Assembly: GCF_000429925.1 (NCBI RefSeq)
Contig: NZ_KE386987.1
Coordinates: 109,976-173,975, forward strand
Length of the DNA stretch: 64,000 nucleotides
DNA from: Desulfatirhabdium butyrativorans DSM 18734
GTDB taxonomy: Bacteria; Desulfobacterota; Desulfobacteria; Desulfobacterales; Desulfatirhabdiaceae
Reading direction: 5' to 3'
Both the position numbers and the translations under genes were made by a program. The notes below the pieces were generated by a model that worked only from the letters and a program-made list of their open reading frames with translations, was not told where the DNA came from and searched no databases. This document shows, one piece after another, positions 27,040 to 49,028 of this stretch. Within the stretch, counting starts at the first letter, position 1; each line of letters starts with the position of its first letter.

Positions 27040-28119
27040 TCACGCCTTTCCGCTTACCTGAGCCTGTGCAAAGGTCATGACCTGGCGGAACATTTTTGCC
27101 GAGGCATCCAGAATGCACATGGCAAGGGCCGCCCCCGTGCCTTCGCCGAGACGCATGCCCAAATCGAGGATGGGTCTGAGTTGGAGATGGTCGAGCATGA
27201 AACGGTGGCCCGGCTCTTCGGAACAATGGCCGGAAAACAGGTAGTCGGTTGCTGCCGGGCAGAGGCTGTGGGCGATCAGCGCACCTGCCGTCGAAATGAA
27301 GCCATCGATGACGATGGGCTTCTGGTGGAAGGCTGCGGCAAGAATCAGCCCGGCAATGCCGCCGATCTCGAACCCGCCGACCTTGGCCAGAACGTCGATG
27401 CCATCGGCGGGATCGGGTCGGTTCCATGCGATGGCCTTGGCCAGTACGGCCCGTTTGGCGGCCAGCCCCTGGGCATTCAATCCCGTCCCCGGGCCCGTCA
27501 TCACATCGACGCCGCAGCCGCTCAGCACCGCCCCGATGGCGGCAGAGGGAGATGTGTTGCCGATCCCCATGTCGCCGGTGCCCAGAATGTCATACCCGTT
27601 CGCATAAAGACTGCTTGCCACCTCAAATCCGGCCAGGATCGACTGCTCGGCCTCCTGCCGGCTCATGGCGGGACCTTTCAAGAAATTGTCGGTGCCTTTT
27701 CGGATTTTGCGAACGATCAGGGCTTCTCCTCCGGGGATGGTCGCGGGATCGATTTCCGGAATGATGCCCATGTCAATGACCCGGACATCTGCGCCGACAT
27801 GGCCAGCCAACGCATTGATCCCTGCGCCGCCTGCCAGGAAGGTTTTGACCATGGCGCCTGTCACTTCCTGCGGGAAGGCGCTCACGGATTCGGATGCGAT
27901 ACCGTGGTCCCCGGCCATGACGGCAATGGCTTTTTTCGAAACAGTTGGTTCCAGGGTCTTCTGGATGGCGCAGAGACGTTCCGAAAAATCGTGGAGCCTG
28001 CCCAGCGCCCTGGGCGGCATCACCAGTTGCGCGGTGCGCTCTTTCGCTTTCTCGATCCATGCAGGGTCTACCGGTTGAATGCTGGCCAGAATGTCCTTGA
28101 GTGACGACGGGTTGTTCAT
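27040..28119 (-). CDS. cobT: Nicotinate-nucleotide--dimethylbenzimidazole phosphoribosyltransferase
   Basis: 359-residue cobalamin lower-ligand enzyme that activates the base (DMB or another) as the alpha-ribotide. Family motifs are VMAGDHGIASESVSAFPQEV, GDMGIGNTSPSAAIGAVL, and MRLGEGTGAALAM, which carries the catalytic Glu. ATG 28119 is chosen because AAGGAGGAG precedes it; an earlier ATG at 28164 lies within the terminator. The gene is preceded by a cobalamin riboswitch, so it is probably repressed by adenosylcobalamin. Corrinoid supply fits the methyl-transfer Wood-Ljungdahl metabolism suggested by the adjacent metF locus. Confidence 0.97.
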   Translation of the reverse strand: MNNPSSLKDILASIQPVDPAWIEKAKERTAQLVMPPRALGRLHDFSERLCAIQKTLEPTVSKKAIAVMAGDHGIASESVSAFPQEVTGAMVKTFLAGGAGINALAGHVGADVRVIDMGIIPEIDPATIPGGEALIVRKIRKGTDNFLKGPAMSRQEAEQSILAGFEVASSLYANGYDILGTGDMGIGNTSPSAAIGAVLSGCGVDVMTGPGTGLNAQGLAAKRAVLAKAIAWNRPDPADGIDVLAKVGGFEIGGIAGLILAAAFHQKPIVIDGFISTAGALIAHSLCPAATDYLFSGHCSEEPGHRFMLDHLQLRPILDLGMRLGEGTGAALAMCILDASAKMFRQVMTFAQAQVSGKA

Positions 28120-28162
28120 GATCTCCTCCTTGAATGGAATGGATTCTTCGAGCGATTTTTGC

Positions 28163-28200
28163 AAAAAAAATCCCCGAGGCTTGAAATAAGCCCGGGGATT
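28163..28200 (-). terminator. Rho-independent terminator of the cobalamin riboswitch
   Basis: On the minus strand the stem AATCCCCGGGCTT/AAGCCTCGGGGATT (one bulged base, 5-nt loop) is followed by eight T residues. It lies between the riboswitch and the cobT ribosome-binding site, which implies ligand-dependent termination. Confidence 0.9.
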
Positions 28201-28220
28201 TGCCTTCTCCTCGATTGGGC

Positions 28221-28391
28221 ATTCCGATGGCAGGTCTTCTGGCTTCCGGATCGACCCTGAAAGTCACGCCTTCCCGTCACGCTGGTTTCGTGACAGTGGC
28301 ATCATGTGGCCCAGGTACCCGGTTACAGCGGCGGGTCCGCGCCGGATTTTCACCGGCTTCCCGATTGAGCCCGTGAGGGCGCCATTGGAAT
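28221..28391 (-). promoter_or_regulatory. Cobalamin riboswitch upstream of cobT
   Basis: On the minus strand the conserved core reads GGGAAGCCGGTGAAAATCCG, then CCGCTGTAACCGG, then the B12 box GCCACTG, ending with GGAAGCCAGAAGACCTGCC. The outer P1 stem is visible as ATTCCAATGG (28391-28382) pairing with CCATCGGAAT (28230-28221). These are the hallmarks of AdoCbl-binding leaders; a terminator and cobT follow. Confidence 0.96.
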
Positions 28392-28404
28392 ACGGAGATA
28401 TATG

Positions 28405-28948: not shown

Positions 28949-29875
28949 TCAATCCACTTTCGGTCTGGGCAGCATGCCTGCCTGCTTGGCGATTTCAGGC
29001 ACCTTGTGCTCCCATTCGATGGCCATCAGATGAACACCCGCCACGCCTTTCATGGTCTTGAATTCTTCGATCTGTTCACAGGCGATCTTGATGCCTTCCT
29101 CCGCCACCTTGCCTTTTTCAGCCCCCTTGAGCCGCTTGATGATCTCGTCGGGCACATCCATTCCCGGCACCTTGTTCTTCATGTAGTTGGCCATACCCAC
29201 GCTTTTCATCGGGGTCACGCCCGCCAGGATGTAGACTTTCTCGGTCAGGCCCATGTCGTTGGCCATTGCGATGAAGTTGCGGAATTTTTCCATGTTGTAG
29301 ATGCACTGGGTCTGGATGAAATCCACGCCTGCCGCGATTTTCTTCGCCAGGCGGTGAACCCGCCATTCGAAGGGATCGGCAAAGGGATTGGAGGCCGCGC
29401 CGATGAAGATCTTTGGCGGATGTTCGATTTCGGCGCCGCTCAGGAACTTGCCTTCATCCCGCATGCGCTTTACGGTCTGGATGAGCTGCATGGAATCGAT
29501 GTCGAAAACCCCCTTGGCGTTCGGATGGTCTCCGAACTTCATGTGATCGCCAGAAAGGCAGAGCATGTTCCGGATACCCAGCGCATAGGCACCCAGGATA
29601 TCGGCCTGCATGGCCAGTCGGTTCCGGTCTCTGCAGACCATCTGGTAATTGGGTTCGAGCCCTTCCTGAATGGCGATCAGGGATGCGGCCCAGCTTGCCA
29701 TCCGGACGACTGCCGTCTGGTTGTCGGTGATGTTGACGGCATCCACGTTCCCCTTGAGGAATCCGGCTTTCTTGCGGACTTCCTCGGCATCTGTTCCGCG
29801 GGGCGGCCCCAGCTCCCCGGTAAATGCGAAATGACCTGCCTGCAGTATTTTTTCGAGATTGCTTCCTGATTTCAT
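28949..29875 (-). CDS. metF: 5,10-methylenetetrahydrofolate reductase
   Basis: 308-residue TIM-barrel flavoprotein that reduces methylene-THF to methyl-THF. Recognisable blocks are FTGELGPPRGTDAEE, DAVNITDNQTAVVRMA, MVCRDRNRLAMQADILGAY, LCLSGDHMKFGDHP, GVDFIQTQCIYNME and VYILAGVTPMKSVGMANYM. It is the short MetF type of acetogens and sulfate reducers that lacks a NADH-binding domain and works with MetV. It is the last gene of the Hdr-MvhD-MetV-MetF series, so electrons probably arrive through iron-sulfur partners. GAGGAT precedes the ATG. Confidence 0.95.
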   Translation of the reverse strand: MKSGSNLEKILQAGHFAFTGELGPPRGTDAEEVRKKAGFLKGNVDAVNITDNQTAVVRMASWAASLIAIQEGLEPNYQMVCRDRNRLAMQADILGAYALGIRNMLCLSGDHMKFGDHPNAKGVFDIDSMQLIQTVKRMRDEGKFLSGAEIEHPPKIFIGAASNPFADPFEWRVHRLAKKIAAGVDFIQTQCIYNMEKFRNFIAMANDMGLTEKVYILAGVTPMKSVGMANYMKNKVPGMDVPDEIIKRLKGAEKGKVAEEGIKIACEQIEEFKTMKGVAGVHLMAIEWEHKVPEIAKQAGMLPRPKVD

Positions 29876-29912
29876 GGTATCCTCGTTGGTCTAAGCAACT
29901 TCCCGCTCGGTT

Positions 29913-30587
29913 TTATGCCTTCTTCTCCGGTTTCTTGTATCCTGGCTGGATCAGGGTTCTCGGCACCTGATTGGCCCATTCTGAAGGCGGCGCCAGTTTC
30001 ATGATGCACTCGAGGCGGTTCTGTTTCTTGAGCCGCTCATAGATCATGTACCAGGCGCAGGGCTGCTCCGGGTCAATTTCGCAACTGCCCCGGTTGGTGC
30101 CGCCGCAGGGCCCGTTGTACAACCCCTTGGCGCACATGGTTACCGGGCAGATGCCGCCTGTCCAGCCCAGCACGCAACTGCTGCAGGAGCGGCAGCGCTC
30201 CTCGTACCAGCCCACGTCCTGGTTGACGCCGATAAACGTGGTATCCACCGCAGGCAGCACCGGAATATGGGGATATCGCTCCGCCAGAAACTGGATCCCG
30301 GCGCCGCAGGCCATGGACAGCAGGGCTTCGTATTCGTCGACCTTCGAATCGAGGGCGGCCAGGTATTCCCGATCGCATTGGCGCTCAATGGTAAAGCCGT
30401 CGATTTCGATGGGATCGTTGTCGAGCTTTCGGGCCATGTCGATTTCGGCATTCAGGACGGAAACTTCCTTCTCTCCGCCGGTGAGGCAAACCGCAACGCA
30501 GGTTCCGCAACCCACGTTGAGAATTTTCTTGTAACCCTGGATGAGGCTCTTGATCTCATCGAAGGGTTTTCGTTTGGCAACGATCAT
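29913..30587 (-). CDS. metV: MetV-like methylenetetrahydrofolate reductase C-terminal/Fe-S subunit
   Basis: 224-residue Cys-rich protein. N-terminal NVGCGTCVAVCLTGGEKE and, in the second half, the clusters CRSCSSCVLGWTGGICPVTMC and GPCGGTNRG, followed by CEIDPEQPCAW, match the MetV family, the partner of short MetF in acetogens such as Moorella. It probably holds Fe-S or zinc and passes electrons to MetF. GGAGGAAGC lies before the ATG. A strong hairpin (30605-30650) occupies the 66-bp gap after the Hdr gene, about 15 nt before the metV ribosome-binding site. metF follows after 37 bp. Confidence 0.92.
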   Translation of the reverse strand: MIVAKRKPFDEIKSLIQGYKKILNVGCGTCVAVCLTGGEKEVSVLNAEIDMARKLDNDPIEIDGFTIERQCDREYLAALDSKVDEYEALLSMACGAGIQFLAERYPHIPVLPAVDTTFIGVNQDVGWYEERCRSCSSCVLGWTGGICPVTMCAKGLYNGPCGGTNRGSCEIDPEQPCAWYMIYERLKKQNRLECIMKLAPPSEWANQVPRTLIQPGYKKPEKKA

Positions 30588-30604
30588 GCTTCCTCCGCAA
30601 CCAT

Positions 30605-30650
30605 TTGCCTGGGATCGCCGGCAGAACGATCCGGGCGATCCCAGGCAAAC
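30605..30650 (-). promoter_or_regulatory. Intercistronic stem-loop before metV
   Basis: Perfect 16-bp arms TTTGCCTGGGATCGCC (30605-30620) and GGCGATCCCAGGCAAA (30635-30650) with a 14-nt loop. No T-run follows. It fills the gap between the Hdr-like gene and metV and might adjust mRNA stability or subunit ratio. Confidence 0.75.
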
Positions 30651-30653
30651 CGT

Positions 30654-31955
30654 TTATAGGCCGAGTTCGGCCAGGTCCGGGCCCAGATAGGTCCGCTCGT
30701 TTTCGCCCAGAATCCCCATCGCCAGACAGATGATCGTCCACAGATGGACCGTATGCCATCCGCCTTCGTAATGTTCGCTCAGATCATGGACCTGGGCATG
30801 GCAGTTGTGGCACGGGGTGATGCAGTAGGCAGCCCCGGTTTTCTTGATCTGTTCGGTTTTCAGGCGGCCATAATGCCTTCTGGCTTCCGGATAACCGGAC
30901 TGGAGAAACCCGCCGCCGCCGCCGCAGCAGTAATTGTTCGATTTGTTGGGGGTCATGTCGATGAAGTTTTCTTCGCCGACAACCGTTTTCACCACAAAGC
31001 GCAGATCGTCGGCAACGGGATCGCCGAAGCTTTTTCGAACGAGCTGGCAGGGATCTTGAACCGTGAACTTGACCTTGAGGTCCTTGTTCCAGTCGGCGTT
31101 GACCTGCAGCTTGCCTTCCCGGATCCACTGCGCATAGTACTGGATGATGCTCTTGATTTCGAAATTGTAGGGAATTTTGAATTTTTTCAGTCCGGCCCGG
31201 ACTGCGAATAGTTCGTGCCCTCACTCCGTATTGAGCCAGACCTTGCAGCCCAGCTCCTCCACGGCCTTCACCTTCGTTCGGACGATATGCTCCCAGGCAT
31301 CGTCATCCGCCAGAAACATGCAGTAGTTTTCCGCAGCCCACCCCTTGGTGCCATAGGTCCAATCGGCGCCCGCCTTGTGCAGGATTTTCCACAGGGGCAC
31401 CATTTCATCGGGTTCGGTGACCGGTTCCCGCGAATTCTGGTTGAGGAAGAATTCCGCCCCATGTTTGTTGACCGGCGCTTCGAGCGCTTCCCATCCGGGC
31501 TGATTTTCCCGGACTTCGTTCAGCACGTCCTCCACCACGAACTGGAAATCCTCTTCCGAGGCGCCCATCGCGCTGCAGGTGTCGTGCTTGAGGGCCATAT
31601 CGCAGGAGCCCAGAATTCCCTTGGGCTTCTTGTCTCTCGGCCTGCCGAATTTCCGGACATTGAACACGAGCTGCGGGATATCGATCTTCATCGGGCATAC
31701 ATAGATGCAACGCTGGCACATCGTGCACATCCAGGCCCAATCCGAGCTCAGCAACTCCTCGTCCAGCCCCAACGCGGCCATGCGCAGGAATTTCCGGGGG
31801 TCCATGTTTTCCAGTCCCGATGCCGGACATCCCGATGAGCACGCGCCGCAGGTCAAGCATAGATTGAGATTCCCACCCTCGGGGAGGATCTCCTTGACCT
31901 TGTCCATAAAAATGCTTTTCCGCTTGCCTTTTAGTTGAATCACTTCCTCTGCCAT
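30654..31955 (-). CDS. HdrC-HdrB/D-like iron-sulfur selenoprotein (Sec245)
   Basis: 433 residues, read through TGA at 31223-31221 as selenocysteine. The N-terminal HdrC-like part has CLTCGACSSGCP (about 33-44) and CTMCQRCIYVCP (about 77-88). The C-terminal part has CCG-domain blocks: LGCKVWLNTE-U-GHE around residue 245, VQDPCQLVRKSFGDP, NYCCGGGGGF and ITPCHNCHAQ. Conventional reading splits it into two frames, 31221-31955 and 30654-30995, but no stop occurs between them apart from this TGA. A 6-bp hairpin lies 16 nt after the TGA. AGGAG precedes ATG 31955. Expected role: relay of electrons between MvhD/HdrA and MetV-MetF. A nonsense mutation is the alternative, but four other genes show the same pattern. 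Confidence 0.93.
31188..31204 (-). promoter_or_regulatory. Candidate bacterial SECIS hairpin, HdrC-HdrB/D-like gene
   Basis: Sixteen nt after TGA 31223-31221, CAGTCCGGGCCGGACTG forms a 6-bp stem with loop GGGCC. Distance and G-rich apical loop fit bSECIS elements read by SelB. Confidence 0.75.
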
Positions 31956-31969
31956 CATCTTCTCCTTTT

Positions 31970-32392
31970 TCAGGAATTTGCCCATTTCTTCAAGGGATTG
32001 GGTCCAAGGGACCGGATATGCTCCGTCATCTCCCGGGCGTAGGCCGCGAATGTCGGGCCCTCACCCGAAGACAGGTTGTACATCCGGACGCGGTCTCCTT
32101 CGAGCCCGACCTCTTCCAAAAGCTGCCGAACATGGTTCACCCTTTCCTTCGCACGGAAATTGCCTTGCTTGTAATGGCACGTCCCTTCCAGACATCCCAC
32201 GACATAGACGCCGTCGGCGCCTTTCTGGATGGCGCGCAACAGATGTAGCACATCTACCTTGCCGGAACAAGGCACACGAATGATCTTGATATTTGCCGGG
32301 TAATCGAGCCGCATCGAACCTGCCAGGTCCGCAGCCGAATACCCTCAATAATCACAACAGAACGTGATGATCGTCGGTTCGAAATCCGCCAT
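31970..32392 (-). CDS. MvhD-like electron-transfer selenoprotein (Sec16)
   Basis: 140 residues, the delta-subunit family of F420-non-reducing hydrogenase/heterodisulfide reductase, carrying a [2Fe-2S] cluster. ATG 32392 shares an A with the HdrA1 stop (TAATG). The N-terminus is ITFCCDY-U-GYSAADLAG; MvhD relatives have a Cys at this point, as does copy 2 in this window ([15 protein letters not shown]). Later motifs are RVPCSGKVDVLHLLRA and VVGCLEGTCHYKQGN, where the remaining cysteines are kept. TGA 32347-32345 is followed by a 6-bp hairpin after 14 nt. Ordinary gene calling would start at the internal ATG 32314 and lose the first cluster motif. It probably links HdrA1 to the HdrC-HdrB/D-like subunit. 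Confidence 0.93.
32316..32330 (-). promoter_or_regulatory. Candidate bacterial SECIS hairpin, MvhD1
   Basis: Fourteen nt after TGA 32347-32345, GGACCTGGCAGGTTC folds as a 6-bp stem (one G-U) with loop GGC. Confidence 0.7.
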
Positions 32393-35300
32393 TACATCCC
32401 TCCCGCCAGCAAGGCATCAATTTTGCAGTTGAGTTGGTCGTCCTCGTAGAAACTGAGCTGAATCGTGCGTCTGGGGCAGATCGCTGCGCAGACGCCGCAA
32501 CCGTGGCACAGTGCCTCGTCGATCTCGATGATCTGTTTTTCCGTGTTGAACACCGGCACCCCGAAGGGGCAGGATCGCACGCACGTGAGGCATTTGACAC
32601 AGTGATCGGTATCGACCTTGGCGGTGATGGCCGAGAGTTTGATGTGGCTTTTGGACAGGAAAGTCGTCGCCCGGGAGGCTGCCGCCTGGGCCTGGGCGAT
32701 GGTCTCGGTGATGAGTTTGGGGCCGTGGGCCGTTCCGCACAGGAAAATGCCTTCTCCGGGCATATCCACTGGGCGTAGTTTCACATGCGCCTCGATGAAG
32801 AAACCCTGCGGATTTCGGTTCAGTTTCATGATCCCGCAGAGCTCACCCGTTTCGGCAGCCGTTACACCGGCGCTCAATGTGACCAGATCGGCCTGAATCT
32901 CGAGAGGCCGGTTCAGAATATGGTCTTTGGTCAGGACAACGAGCTGATCCCCGCGCTTTTCCACCTGCGGCTGGCTGGTTTCATCGAAACGGATGAAGAT
33001 GACCCCCTTGTTCCGGGCTTCGGTGTAGTAGTCTTCCATCAGCCCGTACGTCCGGATGTCCCGGTACAGCACATAGACCTGCACTTCGGGATCGAGCTTC
33101 TTGATGAGCAGGGCGTTCTTGATGGCGTTCTGACAGCAGATGCGGCTGCAGTTGGGGTTTTCATCGTTTCGGGAGCCTACGCACTGGATCATGACCACCG
33201 TGGACAGACCTGCCGTTCCCTTTTCGGCCAGCCTGTCGGCCAGGCCAAGCTGGGTGGTGATGCGATCGTCCTCGCCGTAGCCGTATTCCTTCGGCTGATA
33301 CTCGTTGGCCCCGGTTGCGACGATGATGATGCCATGATCGATGGTACGGCTTTCCCGGTCGATGCCGGTTTCCACCCGCGTGGTGAAATTGCCCTTGTAT
33401 CCCGCAAAATCGACGACCCGGGCTTCGGTCAGCACCGTTATCCGGTCATTGGATCGGACTTCTGCAACCAGCGATTCGAGATAGGCCTGAACATCTCCGC
33501 CCTCGATCGTGTGATGCAGCCTCCTCGAAAGGCCCCCGAGCTCTTTCTCCTTCTCGATCAGAAACACCTGGAAGCCCTGATTGGCCACACCCAGCGCCGC
33601 ATTCATCCCCGCCACGCCGCCGCCGATCACCAGAGCCTGTTTGTTGACGGCGATCACTTTTTCCCGAAGCGGCTTCAGCGTGCCTGCCCGCGCGACAGCC
33701 ATCCGGACGAGATCCTTGGCTTTTTGGGTCGCGATCTCGGGCGTTTTGGAATGAATCCAGGAATCCTGATTGCGGATGTTGGCCATCTCGAACAGATACC
33801 GGTTCAACCCGCAGGCTTCGAGGGTTTCCATGAACATGGCTTCGTGTGTCTTCGGGCTGCAGGATGCAACCACCACCCGGTTCAGCCGGTGCTCCTTGAT
33901 CTTTTCCTTGATCTTGTCCTGGGTGTCCTGGGAGCAGGTGAAGAGGTTCTGATCGCTGAATACGACATGGGGCAGGCTGGCCGCATAGGCCTGAACGCCT
34001 GGCACATCGACCACCCCGCCGATATTGATGCCGCAGTTGCAGACAAAGACGCCGATGCGCGGTTCTTCTCCTGCGACATCCACTTCGGTGGGCACCTCAA
34101 CCGTTGGCGTGTCCGTTCCGCGCGCAGCCGAAAGGGATGCCCCGGCAAGACATGCAGCGGCGCTGGCCTCGGTGACCGATGAGGGGATGTCCTTTGGTCC
34201 CTGAAACACACCGCAGGTATAGATTCCCGGCCGCGATGTTTCCACGGGCTTGAATGGATCGGTTTCGGCAAACCGGTAGCGGTTCACTGCAACGTCGAGC
34301 CGTTTGGCCAGATCGGATACGCTCTCGGGTATCTGCAAACCGACCGAGAGCACGATCATGCTGAAGATTTCTTCCTGGATCGCGCCGGTATCGTCGACGT
34401 ACCACACCCGCAGATCGCCCGTATCGGGCACTTCCGTGATGGTGTGGATCCGGGCTTTGACGAAACGGACCCCATCCTTGTCCTTGGCCCGGAGGTAGTA
34501 CTGCTCATAGTCCTTGCCAAAGGAGCGGATATCCATGTTGAAAACGGCGCAATCCAGCTCGCCGTGCGCATGTTCCTTGGCGATCATCGCCTCCTTGATC
34601 GCATACATGCAGCATACGGAAGAGCAGTAGCCGTTACCGCACCGGTTCGTATCCCGGGAGCCCACGCACTGGATCCAGGCGATTTTCTGCGGTTCTTCCC
34701 GGTCGAGCGGGCGGCACAGATGCCCCCGGTACGGGCCCGAAGCGCTCAGGATGCGCTCGAATTCCTCGCTCGTGACGACATTGGCGTATTTGCCGTATCC
34801 CCAGAAATCCAGTTTCGATGGATCATAGCCCATGCTGCCGGGTGCAAGAATCACCGAGCCCACGTTCAGCTCCGATGTGCGCTCCCGGTCGTCGTACTGA
34901 ATGGCCTTTGCGATACAGACGTTTTCGCACAATCCGCAGCCGATACAGGTGTCCGTGTCGATGCCGAAGGCAAGCGGTACGGCCTGCGGGTATTCGATGA
35001 AGGTCGCCCTTCGATCGTCGAGGTTTTTGTTGTAGCGGTTGACCGCCGTGACGGGGCAGTGCCTGGCGCACTCACCGCAACCCGTACACTTGACGGGATC
35101 GATGTATCGCGGGTGGTTGACGAGGGTGACGGAGAAATTGCCCGGATCACCCGATACGGATTGCACTTCGCTGTTGGTGACGATCTGGATGTTGATGTGC
35201 CGGCCGACCTCGACCAGTTTGGGCGAGATCACTCACATCGCACAGTCGTTTGTGGGGAATGTCTTGTCGAGCCTCGCCATCATGCCGCCGACTGTCGGCA

Positions 35301-35421
35301 GCTTGTCGACGAGGTACACGAAATAATCGGAATTCGCCAGATCGAGCGCCGCCTGCATGCCGGCGATACCTGCACCGACCACCATCACGGAGCCGCTGAT
35401 CTTTCCGGTTTCTGGTTTCAT
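32392..35421 (-). CDS. HdrA-like FAD/iron-sulfur selenoprotein, duplicated type (Sec63)
   Basis: 1009 residues, about 350 longer than ordinary HdrA, read through TGA 35235-35233. Residues 1-62 start a Rossmann FAD domain (VVGAGIAGMQAALDLANS) and end [21 protein letters not shown]; HdrA homologues carry Cys at the U position. Ferredoxin clusters follow at about 112-123 (CTGCGECARHCP) and 159-170 (CIGCGLCENVCI). A second FAD module starts at about 597 ([16 protein letters not shown]) after [17 protein letters not shown]. Two more clusters close the protein (CVKCLTCVRSCP, CHGCGVCAAICP). AAGGAG precedes ATG 35421. Known HdrA is the flavin-bifurcating subunit; bifurcation here is inferred. Confidence 0.94.
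35200..35217 (-). promoter_or_regulatory. Candidate bacterial SECIS hairpin, HdrA1
   Basis: Fifteen nt after TGA 35235-35233, CTGGTCGAGGTCGGCCGG can form a 6-bp stem (two G-U pairs) with loop GAGGTC. The identical 18 bases occur at the same distance in HdrA2. Confidence 0.7.
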
Positions 35422-35532
35422 TGGATCTCCTTGAGGAATTGAATCGTTCGATGGGCGGTCACTGGTGACCGCCCCTACGATGCCCAAACCTGCATCGGGC
35501 GGCCACAGTGGGCCGCCCCTGCGATACGGGCA
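35422..35532. repeat. Gap between mvhD2 and hdrA1 with two GC-rich palindromes
   Basis: GGGCGGTCACTGGTGACCGCCC (35453-35474; ten-base arms, two-base centre) and a second inverted pair GGGCGGCC/GGCCGCCC at about 35497-35518, both followed by CCCCT(A/G). They belong to the dispersed GGGCGGCC...CCCCTAC family and could act as mRNA hairpins within the operon. Confidence 0.75.
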
Positions 35533-36282
35533 TTACAGCGCCGCAAACACGGGTGCATGGTGCTCATGCCCCTTGAATTCGACCATGTTCGTTTTTTCCA
35601 TATCGGCCAGCAGATAGGAAATCCGTCGCAACGGTAGACCGATCACCCGGGATATGGCCCGAACGGAAGTATGTCCTGCCAGGATGGCCTGACGGATCAG
35701 GTGCTTCTGGTATTCCCGTTCGAGGGCTGTGTCGAGAACGGCTTCGAATTGCGCCTTTTCCATTTTCCGGCCGTAGACATCGCCCCGCTGGAGCAGTTTC
35801 AGTTCCTTTCCCACCAGCCAGCGGATCTGCTCGGTATTGAGGGTGGCCTCGACGGCCTTGAGCTGCAGATCGAAGCCTGCAGCATCGAACGGCCCCTGTT
35901 CCTGAATGGATGCGATGACTGCCGTGGTGAGATCGACAAAGCGCTGGGCTTCCGCGGAGGACACCCAGGCAATGTGGAGGCGATCGCGGCCGATACCGGC
36001 CAGATCCAGCAGTTTCTGGGTCATGATCATCTTTTTTTCGGCTTGAAGATTACCTTCCAGGTAATGACAGTCGCCGAAATGTCACCCGGCCACCATGACG
36101 CCGTCGCATCCGGCGCTCAGCGCCTTGACGACGAACAGGGGGTCGATCCGGCCCGAGCACATCACCCGGACACTGCGGATGTAGGGCGGATACTGCAGAC
36201 GGGAGACACCGGCCAGATCCGCTCCGGCATAGGCGCACCAGTTGCAGAGAAAAGCGACGATGTTCGGTTTGAATGGTTCCAT
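35533..36282 (-). CDS. MvhD-like selenoprotein (Sec67) with C-terminal winged-helix-like extension
   Basis: 249 residues, read through TGA 36084-36082. Residues 1-90 are Mvh[29 protein letters not shown], then [20 protein letters not shown], where U replaces the Cys of the usual GC(H)xGDCHY motif. Thus this copy has Sec in the second motif and Cys in the first, the reverse of MvhD1. Residues about 95-249 are an extension absent from simple MvhD; its last part ([39 protein letters not shown]) looks like a winged helix. A perfect 7-bp hairpin begins 16 nt after the TGA. GGAAAGGGAAC precedes the ATG. Confidence 0.93.
36049..36065 (-). promoter_or_regulatory. Candidate bacterial SECIS hairpin, MvhD2
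   Basis: Sixteen nt after TGA 36084-36082, ATTACCTGGAAGGTAAT forms a perfect 7-bp stem with loop GGA. The clearest of the five hairpins. Confidence 0.8.
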
Positions 36283-36479
36283 CTAAGTTCCCTTTCCAGT
36301 TGGTTGGGATTCCGTATCGGAAAACCCGGAGTCAGGAGCCAGGAGTCAGGCGTCAGAAGTCGGAAGGACAAAGGCGGACTTCTTTTTCCAAGGTCTTGTG
36401 TTCCCGTATTCCAATCCCGGGTGATATTTCTACAGGCCCATTACCTATAGCCCATTGCCCATTGCCTATAGCCTATAGC
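36283..36479. repeat. Repeat-containing gap between hdrA2 and mvhD2
   Basis: Contains GGAGTCAGGAGCCAGGAGTC-type heptamers (36328-36360) and a run of CCTATAGCC/CCCATTGCC nonamers (36426-36484) reaching the hdrA2 stop codon. No gene seen. Confidence 0.7.
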
Positions 36480-39400
36480 CTATCCGGCCACCGAACACAC
36501 CGCAGCCAGAATCTGTTCATCCTTGAAATGGAGCATTTCGATGGCCTTCTGCGGGCAGGAGGCGGCGCAGAGCCCGCATCCCTTGCAGGAAGCCGAAATG
36601 TTCTTCGCCCGATAGCCTTTCCCGTCCTGATCCTCGAGAATGATGGCGCCGAAGGGACAGACTTCCGTGCACAGGCCGCAACCGATGCACAATTCCGTAT
36701 GGACCTTCGAGACCAGCGGGGAGACGGTGATGGCCTCCCTTGCCAGAACGGTTACAGCCCTTGCCGCTGCTGCCATGGCCTGGGCGATGCTTTCATCGAG
36801 GCTTTTGGGGTAGTGGGCAAGGCCGCAGACAAAGAGCCCATCGGAAGCGAAATCGACAGGCCGGAGTTTGGCGTGGGCCTCCATGAAAAAGTTCTCGGCA
36901 TTGAGCGGCACTTTGTAAAAACCGGCAATGTCCTGATTGGGCGATGGCTCGATGGCCGTTGCCAGGTTCACGAGATCGGCTTCGATTTCGAGGTGTTTCT
37001 GCAGAATCGGATCGAAGACCCGGACCAGGAGGCCATTGGCCGTTTCGGTGACGACAGGCTTGCGATCGAGGCTGTATCGAATGAAAATGACGCCGAGCTC
37101 CCGCGCCTTTTTGTAGAGCAATTCCCGGTCTCCAAAGGTCCGGATGTCCCGATAGACGATGTAGACCGATGTATCCGGCGATTTTTCCTTGATGGCGATG
37201 GCCTGGGAAACGGAGGCCGTGCAGCAGATGCGCGAGCAGTAAGGCCGCTTTTCGTCCCGGGAGCCCACGCATTGGATGAAGACGACGCTCTGTACGCCTT
37301 CCAGCAGCTCGGGACGGTTTTCGATGTCGTGCCAGCGCGTCACCCTCGGCGATTTCCCATAGAGGTATTCGTCGACATCCGCAGCCCTGCCGCCGGTGGC
37401 GATGATTACCGCGCCATGCTGAATGCTCTGGAGACCCTGGGCCGTCTGGACTTTCGTTTCGAAATTGCCGACGAATCCGGATGCATCCACGATCTGTGCG
37501 CCACACAACACGGTGATGGCCGGATGGGCCTCGACGTCTGCGATCAGTTTGGCCAGATATGCCTGTACGTCTTCACCATGCGTCGTATGCCGGACATCCC
37601 GGGCCGATCCGCCAAGCGCGGCCTCTTTTTCGACGATGACAGCCGAAAATCCCTGGCGTGCCAGACTCATGGCTGCCGTCATGCCGGCAACCCCGCCGCC
37701 GATGACGAGGGCGCTCTTGGATACCGGGACCGACAAATCGGCAATGGGCTCCAGAAGCGACGCCCGGGAGACGGCCATTCGGACCAGGTCCTTGGCCTTT
37801 TGGGTCGCTTCGTCCTTTTGCGTCGAATGCACCCAGGTGCACTGGTTGCGGATGTTGGCCATCTCGAAGAGGTAGGCATTGAGCCCTGCATTCCGCAAAG
37901 TTTCCTGGAACAGGGGCTCGTGGGTCCGGGGGGTGCAGGCAGCGACGACGAAACGATTCAATTTCTCGTTGCGGATCACCTCCACCATCTTGTCCTGCGT
38001 GTCCTGGCTGCAGGCAAAGAGCGTGTCTTCCACATAGACCACGTTGGGAAGGGTTTTGGCGTAGGCTGCCACTGCCGGAACATCCGCAATCCCGCCAATG
38101 TTGATGCCGCAGTTGCATACAAAGACCCCGATGCGGGGAGCGTCGTCTGAAACAGGCGTCTCTTCGGGAAAGACTTTCTGCTTGACCAGGGTTCCGCGGG
38201 CCGATGCGAGGGCAAAGGATGCCGAGCATGCCGCAGCGCTGGCTTCGACGACGGACTGGGGAATGTCCTTGCAGCCCTGAAGGCTTCCGGCCACGTAAAT
38301 GCCGGGCCTGGAAGTGGTCACCGGCTGCGTGTCCGAAGTCTTGACGAAACGGAAGGGGTTGAGTTCGATTCCGAGAACGCCTGCCGTTTCGATGGCCGAT
38401 TGGGCTGGTTCCATCCCGACCGAAAGCACCACCATGTCGAAATTCTCTTCGATCCGTTCACCGGTTTCGGTGACGTAAACCAGATTCAATGTCCCGCTCT
38501 TGTCGATTTCGGTGATGGTATGCACCCGGGAGCGGATGAAGCGTACCCCTTCGGCCTTGGCGCGGTCATAATATTTTTCGAAATCCTTTCCATGCGTTCT
38601 CATGTCCATGAAAAAGATGGTCGGCTGAAAGCCGGGCCCCAGGTGTTCCTTCGCGATCACCGATTCCTTGATGGCATACATGCAGCAGACGGCCGAGCAA
38701 TAGGGGTTGTCGCAGCGGTTGAGATCGCGGGAACCCACGCATTGCAGCCAGGCGATTTTTTTCGGCTCGACACCGTCGGATAGCCGTTTGACATGCCCTA
38801 CGAAAGGACCGCCTGCCGAGAGCATCCGTTCGAATTCCATGCTGGTGAGTACGTTGGCGAAACGGGCGTGCTGGTAGTTGTCGAATTTGTCCGGGTTGAA
38901 GGGCTTGAATCCTGCCGTGAGAATGACCGAGCCGACATTCAGGGTGATTTCCGTTTCCTGTTCGTCAAACCGGATGGCATGGGTGGGGCAGAATTTTTCA
39001 CATGCCTTGCAGCGACCCTTCTGAAAATAGATGCAATGGTCCCTGTCGATGGCATATTTCAGCGGAACAGCCTGCGCATAAGGAACATAAATGGCTTTTC
39101 GCTTGGCCAGTCCCTCGTTGAAGGCGTCGGTGACTTTGGCGGGGCATTTTTCTGCGCAGGTGCCGCAGGCGATACACTTGTCGACATCGACGTAACGGGG
39201 GGATTTTCGAATGGTGACAGTGAAATTGCCCTCGTCACCGGAAATGGCAGTGACTTTGGAGAGGGTGAGCAGTTCGATGTTGAGATGCCGGCCGACCTCG
39301 ACCAGTTTCGGGGAAATGATTCACATGGAGCAGTCGTTTGTGGGGAAAGTCTTGTCGAGCTGCGCCATCGCCCCACCGATGGCCGGCGTTTCTTCGACAA

Positions 39401-39497
39401 GATAGACGAAATACCCGGAGTCCGCCAGATCGAGAGCGGACTGCATGCCGGTGATGCCGCCGCCCACCACGAGAACCGAACCGATTGTGTTGTTCAT
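36480..39497 (-). CDS. HdrA-like FAD/iron-sulfur selenoprotein, duplicated type, copy 2 (Sec59)
   Basis: 1005 residues, a full-length paralogue of HdrA1. The N-terminal FAD motif is [18 protein letters not shown], then [21 protein letters not shown] with U from TGA 39323-39321. I translated the region between the two conventional frames (39320-38841) and found no further stop; it holds [12 protein letters not shown] and [17 protein letters not shown], the latter a variant second cluster with inserted residues. A second FAD module starts near residue 600 ([17 protein letters not shown]). The C-terminal clusters are [12 protein letters not shown] and [15 protein letters not shown] 39497 starts the family N-terminus. 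It is the first gene of the locus, about 210 nt after a promoter. Confidence 0.94.
39288..39305 (-). promoter_or_regulatory. Candidate bacterial SECIS hairpin, HdrA2
   Basis: Fifteen nt after TGA 39323-39321; identical in sequence and distance to the HdrA1 hairpin, including all six third-codon bases. Confidence 0.7.
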
Positions 39498-45293: not shown

Positions 45294-46856
45294 TTATTTC
45301 ATGGCTTTCTGGATGGCACGGTTGAGGTCCTCCATCCGGTAGGGTTTGGCGATATAGCCTCTGGCCCCGGCTTCAATGGCCCGATCCGAATGGCCGATCG
45401 GGCCGTACCCGCTTGCGATGAGCACCTTGACTGCCGGATCGATCTGGAGCAATTGTTTGAGGCATTTGTAACCACCCATGCCCGGCATCCCCAGATCGAG
45501 AATGACCAGATCGATGGGATCGCTTTTGTTCTGGTACTTCAGCAACGCCTCTTCGCCGCTCTCGGAAAGGATGACCCGATAGCCCAGCCGATCCAGAACT
45601 TCCTGACAGAATTCCCGGATGAAAGGGTCGTCATCCACAACGAGAATGGTCCGATGATCGCTTTCGTTCAATGTAATCGGTTCGACGACGATATCGCAAA
45701 CCTCCTCCCGGCCGGATTGTGCAGGGAAAAAGATTTCGAATACCGTCCCCTCTCCGGGGTGGCTCATGCACTGGATATATCCGGAATGACTCTTGACGAT
45801 CCCGAACACGGTGGCAAGACCCAGCCCCGTGCCTTTGCCGATTCCCTTGGTCGTAAAGAAAGGATCGAAGATGTGCCGGACCGTTTTCTCATCCATCCCG
45901 CAGCCTGTATCCGTCACCCGAAGCAGCACATACAGGCCCGGGTTCATCTGCAGACCGTTGGCGTTCTTGTTTTCTGCTATCCGGGCCATCCGTGTTTCAA
46001 TGTGCAGCACCCCGCCGTTTGGCATGGCGTCTGCGGCATTGGTGGCCAGATTCAGCATGATCTGGTCAAGCTGGGTCGGATCGGCATGGATCAGCCCCAG
46101 ATCAGGCTGAAGCCTTTTTTCGATGGCCACCATTTTGGGCAGGGTCCGCTCGAGCAGAATCAGACTTTGTCGAATCACATCATTCAGTTGCAGCAGCCGC
46201 AGCTCCGGGCTGACTTTTCTGCTGAACATCAGAATCTGTCTGACGAGCTGTTTGGCCCTTTCGGCGGATTTCAGAATCTGGGTGATATCGTGCGGCTTGC
46301 AAATGCCCTTTTGGGCGTCCATCAGGGCCATCTGCCCGAATCCCATGATTGCACCAAGAATGTTGTTGAAATCATGCGCGATTCCTCCAGCGAGCACTCC
46401 GAGCGCCTCCATCTTCTGCGCCTGGATGAGCTGGATTTCAAGCCGGGCTTTCTCCATTTCGGCTTCCTTCCGGCTCGAAATATCCATATATACGGCCTGG
46501 ATGCCCACCTGGCGGTCTCCGGATAAAAGGGGGGAACCGGTCACGGCCACATCGATGATCCGGCCGTATTTCGATTTTCTTCGGGTTTCGACCTGGATTC
46601 GCTGGCCTTCCGCAATGCGGCTGCGCAGGGCGTGGGCTTCTTCCTTCAGATCATCCGGCGCCAGCAGGGAGCTGATGTTTTTTCCACGAACCTCTTCGAG
46701 ACCATAACCGAAGAGCCGGGTGAATTCCTGGTTGATCCGAACGATATTGCCTTCAAGACCCGAAATGACGATTGCCACAGGAGAGTTTTCAATGAGTTGA
46801 TCATAAAAGGCGAGCTGTTCCCGCAGTTTTTGCTCCGTTATGGAATCCATACTCAT
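45294..46856 (-). CDS. PAS-domain sensor histidine kinase with C-terminal receiver
   Basis: 520 residues. A PAS domain lies near the N-terminus ([36 protein letters not shown]), followed by a short coil, HisKA with the H-box [20 protein letters not shown], HATPase ([33 protein letters not shown]) and a C-terminal receiver ([32 protein letters not shown]). The HDFNN H-box puts it in the group of kinases with built-in receiver. ATG 46856 with GGAG upstream is preferred to starts at 46916 or 46877. It follows the molybdopterin enzyme gene on the same strand. Confidence 0.93.
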
Positions 46857-46922
46857 GTCAGCTCCACCGGCCTCCATATCCCTGTCGAAAATGAAATCAA
46901 GACATCCTTGTCTCAAAAGAGC

Positions 46923-49028
46923 TTACAGCTTTTCGATCCGGCATGGTACAGCCTTGAGTTTCGGTGTCCCGAAGGCTTTGCCTGACGGGAAGGCGGCAGT
47001 CGCCTGGTTGTAATTGGCCGAAACATCATCGCCTTGATCTTCAAGCTCCCACCATCCCGATGCGGCCAAAACGACATCGGGCCGGATACGATCCGAAATC
47101 TCGGCCCACTGCACGAGGCTTCCTGCCGAAGTGACAATCCGTACCCGCTCTCCCTGGGCGATTCGGGCGCTCGCAGCCGTTTCTGGATGAATCCGGCAGT
47201 ACGGCAGCGGCTCCCGTTTTCGGAGTCCTTCGATCCATCGATAGGAACTGTGCAGATAATGGGGGCTTTTCGCGCTGGTCAGCAGCAGGTTGAAAGGCTC
47301 GTTTGCGGATGTCTGCCCTGCTTTACGCGCCAACTCGGCTGCAGGCAGGGGATCGAGTCCCCACTGAGTGGCGCTGTCGAGCCGCAACTCGACCTTTTTC
47401 GAACGGGTTTTAAAGCCCGATCTCCGATATTTGCGCTCGATTTTCTTCCCTTCCAGAAAACCGGCTTCTGAAAACTGGGCATAATTCAGCCCGGAAGGTT
47501 TTAAAACGGCATCCAGTATTTCTTTCGGATCATCGAACCACAATTCGGCGGGGCTTATGCGCTTACCGATTTCGTTGAGGATCCACATATCGGATTTGCA
47601 TTCGGCAGGCGGATCGACGATCCTTGGCCGAGCGAGAATGATGCCATGCCCCAGGCCGTAATGACCGATGTCGTCAAACTCGAATTGGGTGGCGGCAGGC
47701 AACACGATGTCTGCCAGTGCGGCGGTTGGTGTCATGAATACATCGGAGACGGCCAGGAAATCAAGCGCCATCAGCGCCTGCCGGGTCATGGATGTCTGCG
47801 GATAACCGATGAGTGGATTGGCGCACTGGACATATGCCCCACGGACGGGGTAGGGGATGCTTTCGAGAACGGCCTTTCGGAAATAGCTTCCGGGAACCGT
47901 CATCATCCGCGGGACGACGCCGTAATGGGCATGGATCATCTGCCGGATTTTATCCGGCACGAGATCGGACCGGACGAATTCCCCAAGCCCTGTGATCGCA
48001 GGATCGAGGGCGTGCACATTGCCGCCGGAGACATCGAGGTTCCCGCAGATGGCCATCAGGCAGATCAGCGCCCGGATCGTATTCCAGGATTCCGGATGGT
48101 GTTCGATGGCGTTTCCCCAGAAAAGGGCCGATGGTTTCAGGGTGGCATACATTCGGGCGCAGGATTGAATGCGGCTGGCCGTTAAGCCGCAGTATTCGGC
48201 AACGGCCTCCGGCGCATATTCATCGCATCGTCTGGCCAGCTCATCAAAACCGACGGTCCAATCCCGGACAAAGTCTTCATCGTAGCGCTTTTCCGAGATT
48301 ACGACTTGCAGCATCGCCATTGCCAGCGCCGCATCGGTTCCCGGACGAATCTGCAGGAAAACGTCGGCCTTGTCCGCCAATTCCGTCCGGAATGGGTCGA
48401 TCACGGCATATCGGCATCCGTTTCGGAGCTGGTTCCGCAACAGGCTGAAGATTGCGCCTTCTTCGTTTGTCGCCGCCGGGTTGGCGCCCCAGATCAGGAT
48501 AAACCGGCTGGGTTGGCGAAGATCGACGACAGGGAAAAAACCGCAGGTATGCAGGCCGCACACCTCTCGGGGAGCATGGCAAACGTCCTGCACCGCGGCG
48601 ATATTGGGGCAACCAAAGGCGTGGGCCAATCGAATCAGCACGAAATGTTCGAGTCCCTTGGGCATGCCCTGACAAAAAACGACGGATCTGGCGCCATGTC
48701 GATGCCGGATCCGTTTGAACTCGAATGCAATCTGATCGAGGGCCTCAGGCCAGGAAATTTCTTTCCATCGCCCGGAACCCCGTTTCCCGGTGCGCTTCAG
48801 CGGTTTTTTCAGGCGATCCGGGTGATCGAGTTTTTCGGGAGAAGCCAGCCCCTTGCTGCATACATAGCCCCGGTTGAGCACGCCTTCCGCATCGGGTCGG
48901 ATTTCCACGATACATCCGTCTTTTACGCCGACCCGAAGGGCGCATCCCCCGTGGTCCATACGCGAGCAATGGGTCTTGAACCAAACGACGTCATCCGCTG
49001 AATCCGCTGCCTGCCCCGTCAAATTCAT
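46923..49028 (-). CDS. Molybdopterin-dependent oxidoreductase, DMSO-reductase superfamily
   Basis: 701-residue Mo/W-bisMGD enzyme without a Tat-type signal, so probably cytoplasmic. The N-terminal cluster region is KTHCSRMDHGGCALRV...RGYVCSKG: the usual CxxC start is replaced by C-x3-D-x3-C, so one ligand is changed. The probable metal ligand Cys is in VQDVCHAPREVCG near residue 150. Further blocks are FILIWGANPAATNEE, YAVIDPFRTELADKAD, ALFWGNAIEHH, VQCANPLIGYPQ and a C-terminal molydopterin-binding domain (CRIHPETAASARIAQGERV). The substrate is unknown; relatives include acetylene hydratase, polysulfide and formate enzymes. Confidence 0.9.
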   Translation of the reverse strand: MNLTGQAADSADDVVWFKTHCSRMDHGGCALRVGVKDGCIVEIRPDAEGVLNRGYVCSKGLASPEKLDHPDRLKKPLKRTGKRGSGRWKEISWPEALDQIAFEFKRIRHRHGARSVVFCQGMPKGLEHFVLIRLAHAFGCPNIAAVQDVCHAPREVCGLHTCGFFPVVDLRQPSRFILIWGANPAATNEEGAIFSLLRNQLRNGCRYAVIDPFRTELADKADVFLQIRPGTDAALAMAMLQVVISEKRYDEDFVRDWTVGFDELARRCDEYAPEAVAEYCGLTASRIQSCARMYATLKPSALFWGNAIEHHPESWNTIRALICLMAICGNLDVSGGNVHALDPAITGLGEFVRSDLVPDKIRQMIHAHYGVVPRMMTVPGSYFRKAVLESIPYPVRGAYVQCANPLIGYPQTSMTRQALMALDFLAVSDVFMTPTAALADIVLPAATQFEFDDIGHYGLGHGIILARPRIVDPPAECKSDMWILNEIGKRISPAELWFDDPKEILDAVLKPSGLNYAQFSEAGFLEGKKIERKYRRSGFKTRSKKVELRLDSATQWGLDPLPAAELARKAGQTSANEPFNLLLTSAKSPHYLHSSYRWIEGLRKREPLPYCRIHPETAASARIAQGERVRIVTSAGSLVQWAEISDRIRPDVVLAASGWWELEDQGDDVSANYNQATAAFPSGKAFGTPKLKAVPCRIEKL

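Follow-up and report, generated by a model that had tools for sequence, protein, structure and literature searches.

A run of seven genes, all on the minus strand, lies at 28949-39497 of the window, the 64,000-nucleotide stretch of Desulfatirhabdium butyrativorans DSM 18734 DNA that was analyzed. The genes are, in order:

36480..39497, minus strand: HdrA2, a double-HdrA fusion flavoprotein of 1005 aa, predicted selenoprotein with Sec at codon 59
35533..36282, minus strand: MvhD2, 249 aa, an MvhD/FlpD domain with a C-terminal extension of about 115 aa; predicted Sec67, at the second MvhD site
32392..35421, minus strand: HdrA1, a double-HdrA fusion flavoprotein of 1009 aa; predicted Sec at codon 63 (residue 64 of P0003)
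31970..32392, minus strand: MvhD1, a predicted MvhD/FlpD selenoprotein of 140 aa, with Sec16 in a CxxU motif
30654..31985, minus strand: HdrC/CCG-domain fusion (HdrCB), 443 aa, HdrD/TmcB/HmcF/EtfD-like, predicted selenoprotein with Sec255
29913..30587, minus strand: MetV, 224 aa (PF12225), the partner of MetF, with no internal UGA
28949..29875, minus strand: MetF, 308 aa (PF02219), methylene-THF reductase, with no internal UGA

Each of the first five genes contains one in-frame TGA, and reading this codon as a residue gives full-length products; MvhD1 is terminated by a second TGA, at codon 141. Translations of each gene were checked, and no further frame break was found across the seven. Neighboring genes range from slightly overlapping to 197 bp apart, which is consistent with a single transcription unit. 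A first-pass annotation had described seven co-directional genes, five of them with an in-frame TGA, and all five codons were found on the minus strand where it had placed them. Its assignments (HdrA2, MvhD2, HdrA1, MvhD1, HdrC-HdrB/D-like, MetV and MetF) were likewise upheld by family and profile matches. The five codons predicted to encode Sec are placed as follows:

39321..39323, minus strand: UGA of HdrA2, at the HdrA Cys197 position through its alignment with HdrA1
36082..36084, minus strand: UGA of MvhD2, placed by aligned codons in relatives
35233..35235, minus strand: UGA of HdrA1, at the HdrA Cys197 position
32345..32347, minus strand: UGA of MvhD1, placed by aligned codons in relatives
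31221..31223, minus strand: UGA of the HdrC/CCG gene, placed by aligned codons in relatives

Among tblastn rows with identity of 50% or higher, TGA occupies the HdrCB site in 75 of 75 and the MvhD2 site in 28 of 28. The MvhD1 site has TGA in 51/57 and a Cys codon in 6/57, the HdrA1 site TGA in 57/59 and Cys in 2/59, and the HdrA2 site TGA in 65/70, Cys in 4/70 and a gap in 1/70; these counts include four duplicate loci, and both HdrA queries also match each other's genes. The earlier claim of an apparent Sec at a cysteine position in every Hdr and MvhD product is thus borne out at this cut, with one gap as the only other state. With a looser threshold (at least 55 bits), 33 of 120 HdrA places show something other than TGA or Cys there and are taken to be alignments of second halves or distant paralogues, and Ser is found at MvhD site 1 in 12 of 96 places. 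A genome search for selA, selB, selC and selD, proposed with the first-pass annotation, recovered all four: a tRNA-Sec with anticodon TCA (UCA) and profile matches to SelA (608 bits), SelB (356 bits) and SelD (375 bits, in a gene with a TGA of its own), each over its curated cut-off. The genome also holds dsrA and cdhC, and the host is probably a sulfate-reducing bacterium.

Genome-wide reassignment of UGA to an amino acid is refuted and vanishingly improbable: TGA terminates 17 of 21 other long ORFs hand-picked from the window's ORF list (ten window ORFs were checked by Pfam, nine of them among those 21 or adjoining), tRNA-Sec, SelA, SelB and SelD are present, and recoding goes together with a local hairpin. 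Pseudogene decay or assembly error, suggested by the broken frames that conventional ORF calling gives, is refuted to the same degree: these TGAs reappear at identical codons in other genomes, and the reading frames of all seven genes are otherwise intact. On this comparative evidence, recoding of the five UGAs as Sec is close to certain, and the five seemingly broken genes are almost certainly intact selenoprotein genes, from which full-length products would be made.

Bacterial SECIS elements have been delimited by a loop of 3-9 nt with G in the first two positions, a stem of 4-16 bp, a distance of 16-37 nt after the UGA and an MFE of -7.5 kcal/mol or lower (PMC13188914, excerpt). Downstream of each UGA, a bSECIS-like hairpin was located:

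39288..39305, minus strand: HdrA2 hairpin, 7 bp, loop AGGU
36049..36065, minus strand: MvhD2 hairpin, 7 bp, loop GGA
35200..35217, minus strand: HdrA1 hairpin, 7 bp, loop AGGU
32316..32330, minus strand: MvhD1 hairpin, 6 bp, loop GGC
31188..31204, minus strand: HdrC/CCG gene hairpin, 7 bp, loop GGC

All five fall within the published limits, with stems of 6-7 bp and spacings of 20-23 nt, and the 36-nt folds after the UGAs have MFEs of -8.6 to -16.0. For HdrA1, a 48-nt fold has another minimum-energy structure (-13.5), the hairpin appearing in the 36-nt fold. In all five genes the six-codon window under the strongest synonymous constraint starts 5-7 codons past the UGA, with a majority-codon fraction of 0.92-1.00 compared with 0.55-0.59 gene-wide; 76, 133, 316, 121 and 314 windows were scored in the five genes, the 76 being those of HdrA2, where many matches are split. 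Every hairpin pair is kept in the Sec genes of HdrA (61/61) and MvhD site 1 (48/48), and in most of those of MvhD site 2 (30/32) and HdrCB (64/72), the remaining 2/32 and 8/72 having at least one broken pair. Among Cys-form genes, which include distant paralogues and no HdrCB member, all pairs are kept in 0/26 for HdrA, 1/36 for MvhD site 1 and 0/64 for MvhD site 2. Compensatory changes were seen from A-U to U-A in 6/32 MvhD site-2 Sec genes and from G-C to U-A in 16/72 HdrCB Sec genes. In a shuffle control, the observed pairing was attained by 0/500 shuffles for both MvhD site 2 and HdrCB, and by 500/500 for HdrA and MvhD site 1, where the Sec hairpins are near-invariant and the control is therefore uninformative. 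Each UGA would accordingly be directed by its own bSECIS hairpin, with the apical loop 20-23 nt downstream, and be read as Sec by the ordinary SelA/B/C/D machinery, steps that the sequences support well.

The UGAs could also have a dual use, being read as Sec when selenium is available and otherwise serving as sites of regulated termination that yield functional short products. The codons of MvhD1 (16) and of the two HdrAs (59 and 63) are so near the start that little would be lost by truncation. However, an unsystematic look gave no sign of a functional short product, and the genome has TGA-free matches to HdrA (18 of 25 match places) and MvhD (11 of 17) that could serve under low selenium. 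Dual use is thus considered very unlikely.

In HdrA1 (P0003), residues 19-373 and 452-1006 both match HdrA, giving two thioredoxin-reductase domains. Residue 64, the predicted Sec, aligns to C197 of 5odc, and the C-terminal half lacks this position; Cys197 and the N-terminal domain are thus complementary between the halves, as in fused (type II) HdrA. C197, E356 and K409 are counted here along the 5odc alignment, and the 'M. wolfeii' numbering of PMC9012536 is assumed to be the same. In rows of at least 58% identity, the N-halves of the two HdrAs keep E356 (47/47 and 23/23) and K409 (48/48 and 23/23). The C-half of HdrA2 keeps E356 (22/22) and has S, L, Q, Y or M in the K409 column, with K in 1/22; that of HdrA1 keeps K409 (48/48) and has D in 38/48 and E in 1 at the E356 column, which would read G/S/A/T if the alignment shifted by one. 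Only the N-half of each protein therefore keeps both residues. Pfam detected no Fer4_20/GltD NAD(P)H insertion in either HdrA (P0001 or P0003), a module that is present in the HdrAs P0008 and P0009 of relatives. Each HdrA may thus be viewed as two HdrA units in one chain, in which the N-half would hold the flavin site, both bifurcation residues and Sec, and the C-half would supply the N-terminal Fe-S domain. The role of Cys197 as a ligand in trans to the Fe-S cluster of the partner is known from the 'M. wolfeii' structure (PMC9012536, excerpt), and Sec probably replaces this residue in each fused HdrA. Because the C-half lacks the Cys197 position, the predicted role of the selenol is coordination of the ferredoxin-branch cluster across the pseudo-dimer.

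The two MvhDs carry their predicted Sec at complementary cysteines, as is the case in 22 of 22 tandem loci. Among the 95 MvhD places of the loci, the two sites read U,C in 47, C,U in 31, S,C in 12 and C,C in 5, and no chain has Sec at both. Chain K of PDB 9sfi has X at both aligned sites. Each HdrA would pair with its own MvhD.

The HdrC/CCG protein combines HdrC-like clusters with one PF02754 (CCG) match in its 443 aa. Among NCBIfam models, HmcF, TmcB and DsrK rank higher than GlpC, and all four stay below their cut-offs. An AlphaFold model (mean pLDDT 85.4, pTM 0.85) has EtfD and HdrB as Foldseek neighbors and places Sec255 at the N-terminal end of a helix that follows a strand, where it would correspond to C392 of the second CCG half in secondary-structure order. 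This protein would exchange electrons with MetVF or with a thiol/disulfide partner.

The five-Sec, MetFV-linked arrangement recurs in related genomes and is not unique to this one: tandem loci elsewhere share about 57-88% protein identity and the same TGAs at the same codons. A double HdrA/MvhD set was found in 22 of 78 MetV-bearing loci, after four had been dropped as duplicates (L094, L097, L124, L140) and with further near-duplicates possibly remaining. At one MetV relative (L104), a TGA occurs at Cys147. A sixth Sec, in MetV, was considered and rejected, as a Cys codon occupies that position in 77 of 78 aligned rows and the fold downstream in L104 is unconvincing as a bSECIS.

It is very probable that the seven genes form an operon-like unit in which MetVF is wired to Hdr/MvhD, with five Sec products, in a sulfate reducer using the acetyl-CoA pathway. 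Methyl-/methylene-THF interconversion would likely be coupled to ferredoxin and, via MvhD, to a second carrier, with no bound NAD(P)H site; a physical MetFV-Hdr complex and electron bifurcation are putative parts of this scheme. Alternatively, the five UGAs may encode Sec in Hdr/MvhD proteins whose genes only share a transcript with metVF and which work with a different acceptor, such as DsrC or a quinone-linked CCG partner, with no MetFV-Hdr complex being formed. Such a view fits the HdrC/CCG gene, which lies away from metV in many of the stretches extracted and has a match, frequently more than one, in 242 of 291 class genomes. It accompanies 17 of the 22 tandem loci, being missing from the chain in the other 5, and in 20 of 78 MetV loci the chain consists of MetV/MetF alone, without relatives of these Hdr/MvhD proteins, some of these loci being at contig ends. 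In Sporomusa ovata, MetVF was purified without Hdr/MvhD; pulldowns in the same species nevertheless tied MetF to HdrA and HdrB (PMC9430772, excerpt). Moreover, in 55 of 78 MetV loci the chain that holds MetV also includes an MvhD and a piece of HdrA from these families. Co-transcription without a complex is possible, though on balance not probable, and a wired MetVF-Hdr/MvhD unit is preferred.

The first-pass annotation had likened the locus to MetFV-HdrABC-MvhD, the methylene-THF reductase of Moorella thermoacetica (Mock et al. 2014, via excerpts of PMC9430772, PMC9012536 and PMC5736913), and this likeness holds in part. As far as those excerpts go, metV, metF, hdrA, mvhD and HdrC/B-type genes share one cluster in both, metV/metF adjoining hdrA/mvhD, and the Moorella HdrA is also a double fusion with complementary loss of Cys197 and the N-domain. 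In contrast, the present locus lacks an NAD(P)H module, has two HdrA/MvhD pairs and a fused HdrC/CCG instead of separate HdrB and HdrC, and has predicted Sec in all five Hdr/MvhD products. For M. thermoacetica as an organism, one HdrA and one FrhD selenoprotein are listed (PMC1794560). The Moorella-type HdrA is large (162.8 kDa) and NADH-oxidizing (PMC9430772, excerpt), which a GltD-type NAD(P)H module may account for. In marine Chloroflexi DscP3, hdrABC-mvhD-metVF similarly joins metVF to hdrA, mvhD and a fused hdrC-hdrB, but with one HdrA/MvhD set and with Sec reported for formate dehydrogenases (PMC5736913, excerpt). Operon-clustered Sec in HdrA, MvhD and a 'GlpC' Fe-S oxidoreductase was published in 2006 (PMC1794560). 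The glpC-hdrA-frhD-frhG-frhA operons of Syntrophobacter and Desulfotalea carry Sec HdrA, FrhD (= MvhD) and Fe-S oxidoreductase with tandem or split hdrA, together with the hydrogenase genes frhG and frhA (PMC1794560), whereas metV, metF and two HdrA/MvhD pairs occur here, and no frhG/frhA was detected among the seven genes or the Pfam-sampled neighbors. Methanococcales share CxxU in HdrA and MvhD/VhuD (PMC13188914, excerpt; PDB 9sfi/9t1s) but have two Secs in one VhuD chain and hydrogenase neighbors, compared with one per MvhD and MetVF neighbors here. Type II fused archaeal HdrA (PMC12054007, excerpt) and ANME HdrA3/HdrA4 (PMC9012536, excerpt) are also of about 1000 aa, with two thioredoxin-reductase domains and complementary Cys197/N-domain; here the order is reversed relative to HdrA3/HdrA4, with the Cys197 half first, and restriction of the E356-K409 pair to one half sets the proteins apart from type II HdrA. 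In Desulfobacterium autotrophicum HRM2, Sec is found in HdrA, HdrL, HdrD4 (HdrD being described as a homologue of HdrCB) and four MvhDs, and MetF1 lies in an acetyl-CoA-pathway locus, but the excerpt of PMC2702500 describes no MetFV-linked Sec Hdr cluster. No published description of the MetFV-linked five-Sec form was found.

The methyl-THF step lies at about -200 mV. The locus bears on how acetyl-CoA-pathway sulfate reducers link this step to their carriers, and on why selenium is used in Hdr and MvhD. Relatives carry natural Cys forms of HdrA and MvhD, which permits a direct Sec/Cys comparison within one enzyme system, for example in Desulfonema magnum (L100), where HdrA and MvhD have Cys and the HdrC/CCG gene keeps its UGA. 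Sec-bearing Hdr genes are easily miscalled, and archaeal HdrA has been missed where its Sec codons were read as terminators (PMC12054007, excerpt). A more tentative and rather unlikely proposal is that all five Secs are Fe-S ligands or cluster-site residues of one enzyme that contains two bifurcating flavins but lacks an NAD(P)H site. The HdrA Sec would be a ligand to the ferredoxin-branch cluster of the opposite half, the two MvhDs would have Sec at [2Fe-2S] ligand positions that complement each other, and the CCG-protein Sec would stand in place of a non-cubane-cluster cysteine. If this selenolate wiring is true, a sulfate reducer would link ferredoxin to the oxidation of methyl-THF or the reduction of methylene-THF in a way unseen in acetogens.

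Seven co-directional genes (hdrA2, mvhD2, hdrA1, mvhD1, a fused hdrC/CCG gene, metV and metF) run on the minus strand from 39497 to 28949, with intergenic spacing from slight overlaps to at most 197 bp. Pfam and NCBIfam assign their products to HdrA, MvhD/FlpD, HdrC-plus-CCG, DUF5981 (MetV) and MTHFR, the NCBIfam matches falling below curated cut-offs, as expected of diverged and fused forms. The first-pass annotation had described such a run with five genes interrupted by TGA alone, and exactly one internal TGA was indeed located in each of the first five genes:

39323-39321, minus strand, internal TGA of HdrA2
36084-36082, minus strand, internal TGA of MvhD2
35235-35233, minus strand, internal TGA of HdrA1
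32347-32345, minus strand, internal TGA of MvhD1
31223-31221, minus strand, internal TGA of the HdrC/CCG protein

At its C-terminus, MvhD2 is extended by about 115 aa (35533-35880, minus strand), a segment that has no Pfam match and is kept among relatives (matches span residues 1-249). Elsewhere in the window, a PAS/histidine-kinase/receiver protein adjoins a molybdopterin oxidoreductase (45294-49028, minus strand).

By every test that sequence allows, the five gene products are selenoproteins and their internal UGAs selenocysteine (Sec) codons. The search for selA, selB, selC and selD proposed in the first-pass annotation found all four in the source genome (4.48 Mb in 73 contigs, completeness 97.3%), each over its family cut-off: SelA and SelB genes, a tRNA-Sec with anticodon TCA, and a SelD gene containing its own in-frame TGA. 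The alignment of homologues, likewise proposed, gave TGA or Cys at the five sites in all tblastn rows with 50% identity or more, one gap excepted. In these rows, TGA was found in 75/75 for the HdrC/CCG protein (HdrCB), 28/28 for MvhD2, 51/57 for MvhD1 (Cys in 6), 57/59 for HdrA1 (Cys in 2) and 65/70 for HdrA2 (Cys in 4, gap in 1); these counts include four duplicate loci, and the HdrA1 and HdrA2 queries overlap in what they match. Of 291 genomes searched across the class, 242 have a match to the HdrC/CCG protein, with at least one internal TGA in every match among the stronger ones listed. Of the source genome's 25 HdrA match places, 7 have an internal TGA, as do 6 of its 17 FlpD/MvhD matches, so Sec use in Hdr and MvhD proteins is widespread there, with non-TGA paralogues alongside. 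One relative's MetV (locus L104) has a lone TGA at codon 147, which is Cys in 77 of the 78 aligned MetV rows and may be either a sixth Sec or the product of error or decay.

Additional evidence comes from synonymous constraint, scored at each codon with a conserved amino acid as the share of relatives with the commonest codon, in six-codon windows (76 to 316 per gene). In all five genes, the best window begins 5 to 7 codons 3' of the UGA (0.92-1.00 vs gene-wide means of 0.55-0.59), and the constrained stretch folds into a hairpin of 6-7 bp with a 3-4 nt loop, a G within the first two loop positions, and the loop 20-23 nt 3' of the UGA. Every pair is intact in 61/61 Sec genes vs 0/26 Cys genes for HdrA, 48/48 vs 1/36 for MvhD site 1 and 30/32 vs 0/64 for MvhD site 2 (sites 1 and 2 being two conserved Cys positions), the Cys sets including more distant paralogues; for HdrCB, every pair is intact in 64/72 Sec genes. 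Compensatory changes were found at MvhD site 2 (A-U to U-A, 6/32 genes) and in HdrCB (G-C to U-A, 16/72), and for these two the observed pairing was reached in 0/500 shuffles. For HdrA and MvhD site 1, the hairpins hardly vary and 500/500 shuffles reach the observed pairing, so the control is uninformative and the argument rests on the contrast between Sec and Cys genes. A cleaner contrast is internal to the MvhD pair: at site 1, the codon choice for ADLAG is fixed in MvhD1 (Sec) and varied in MvhD2 (Cys), and at site 2 the hairpin codons are fixed in MvhD2 and varied in the MvhD1 codons shown. All five window hairpins satisfy the bSECIS limits of a published model (PMC13188914), HdrA1 doing so in a 36-nt fold and adopting a different structure in a 48-nt fold.

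The two HdrAs, about 1000 aa each, are 52% identical (513/979). In the HdrA1 read-through product, residues 19-373 match the thioredoxin-reductase part of a solved methanogen HdrA (5odc), residues 452-626 its N-terminal domain and flavin start, and residues 828-1006 its C-terminal part. The HdrA1 Sec aligns with Cys197, a residue that serves in the complex of methanogens as a ligand to the second HdrA copy's N-terminal Fe-S cluster (PMC9012536). In the window HdrAs, the N-terminal domain is missing from the half with Sec197, and position 197 from the half with the N-terminal domain, so a pseudo-dimer is expected within each single chain; ANME HdrA fusions are described with the same complementarity but in opposite order (PMC9012536). 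The bifurcation residues E356 and K409 are kept in the N-halves of all relatives counted, and are not both kept in the C-halves. MvhD1 and MvhD2 carry Sec at different conserved Cys, complementary in 22/22 tandem loci (those with both HdrA/MvhD pairs). The predicted fold of the HdrC/CCG protein (pLDDT 85.4) resembles EtfD and HdrB; of its two CCG halves, the first is incomplete and contains Sec255, positioned where the second has its CxxC, and this Sec may be a cluster residue.

A MetV search of the contig collection found 65 loci, one titled Candidatus Brocadiaceae and most of them Desulfobacteraceae, Desulfobacterales or Deltaproteobacteria; adding 40 stretches around HdrCB matches and removing four duplicates left 78 loci with MetV. 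At least one UGA site is present in the MetV-linked chain of 57 and none in 21. An HdrA piece and MvhD of these families lie within the chain in 55, and MetV/MetF stand alone there in 20, some of these lying at contig ends and some having distant HdrA/MvhD paralogues of Cys/Ser type downstream. Both pairs occur in 22 loci, of which 17 include the HdrC/CCG gene (16 of them in the same gene order as the window) and five lack it. Eight loci have the complete set with an unbroken HdrA2 and a UGA at each of the five sites, one of them without metF (contig end); among them are Desulfobacteraceae bacterium RAAP-1 and an Olavius algarvensis Delta 3 symbiont. The Desulfonema magnum locus has Cys at the HdrA1 and MvhD1 sites and keeps the UGA of the HdrC/CCG gene; its MvhD1 hairpin codons are still present, a fossil SECIS of the kind that a recent change from Sec to Cys would leave.

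Clustered Sec-containing HdrA, FrhD/MvhD and Fe-S oxidoreductase were reported from Deltaproteobacteria in 2006 (PMC1794560), a 2026 review names an operon of four selenoprotein genes (PMC13188914), and HdrA, HdrL, HdrD4 and MvhD are among the 17 selenoproteins of energy metabolism in D. autotrophicum (PMC2702500). Moorella, Sporomusa and marine Chloroflexi have metVF-hdr-mvhD clusters (PMC9430772, PMC5736913), and HdrABC adjoins metF in Seep-SRB1g (PMC10553843); no description of a Sec-containing MetFV-linked Hdr cluster was found in the portions of open-access literature searched. The proposed match to the Moorella MetFV-HdrABC-MvhD complex holds for gene content, but the window cluster has neither separate HdrB/C nor the NAD(P)H module. 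Of the 13 loci with HdrA matches listed, 9 have one HdrA whose N-terminal part is set apart from the remainder by a gap of roughly 1.3-1.5 kb. The two gapped HdrAs that were translated each contain an insertion, about 460 aa long, made up of Fer4_20 and a pyridine-nucleotide (GltD-type) part, which Pfam did not detect in either window HdrA. A second metVF locus of the source genome (L158, G000:C12:20000-31500) has HdrA-MvhD with one TGA each, its single, longer HdrA match split by a gap of the insertion's size; the window locus is thus read, from sequence, as a form that would have no bound NAD(P)H site.

A cobT-like phosphoribosyltransferase gene (PF02277) lies just downstream of metF, preceded by a cobalamin riboswitch (28212-28401, minus strand, 117.9 bits; together 27040-28401, minus strand), and may be connected with providing corrinoid to the acetyl-CoA pathway. 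The source genome holds dsrA as well as cdhC, which encodes a subunit of acetyl-CoA synthase; both fit a sulfate reducer with that pathway. Because the methyl/methylene-THF couple is placed near -200 mV (PMC6895022, PMC9430772), ferredoxin coupling needs bifurcation or confurcation; we infer such a reaction, a complex of the seven products and the MvhD partner.
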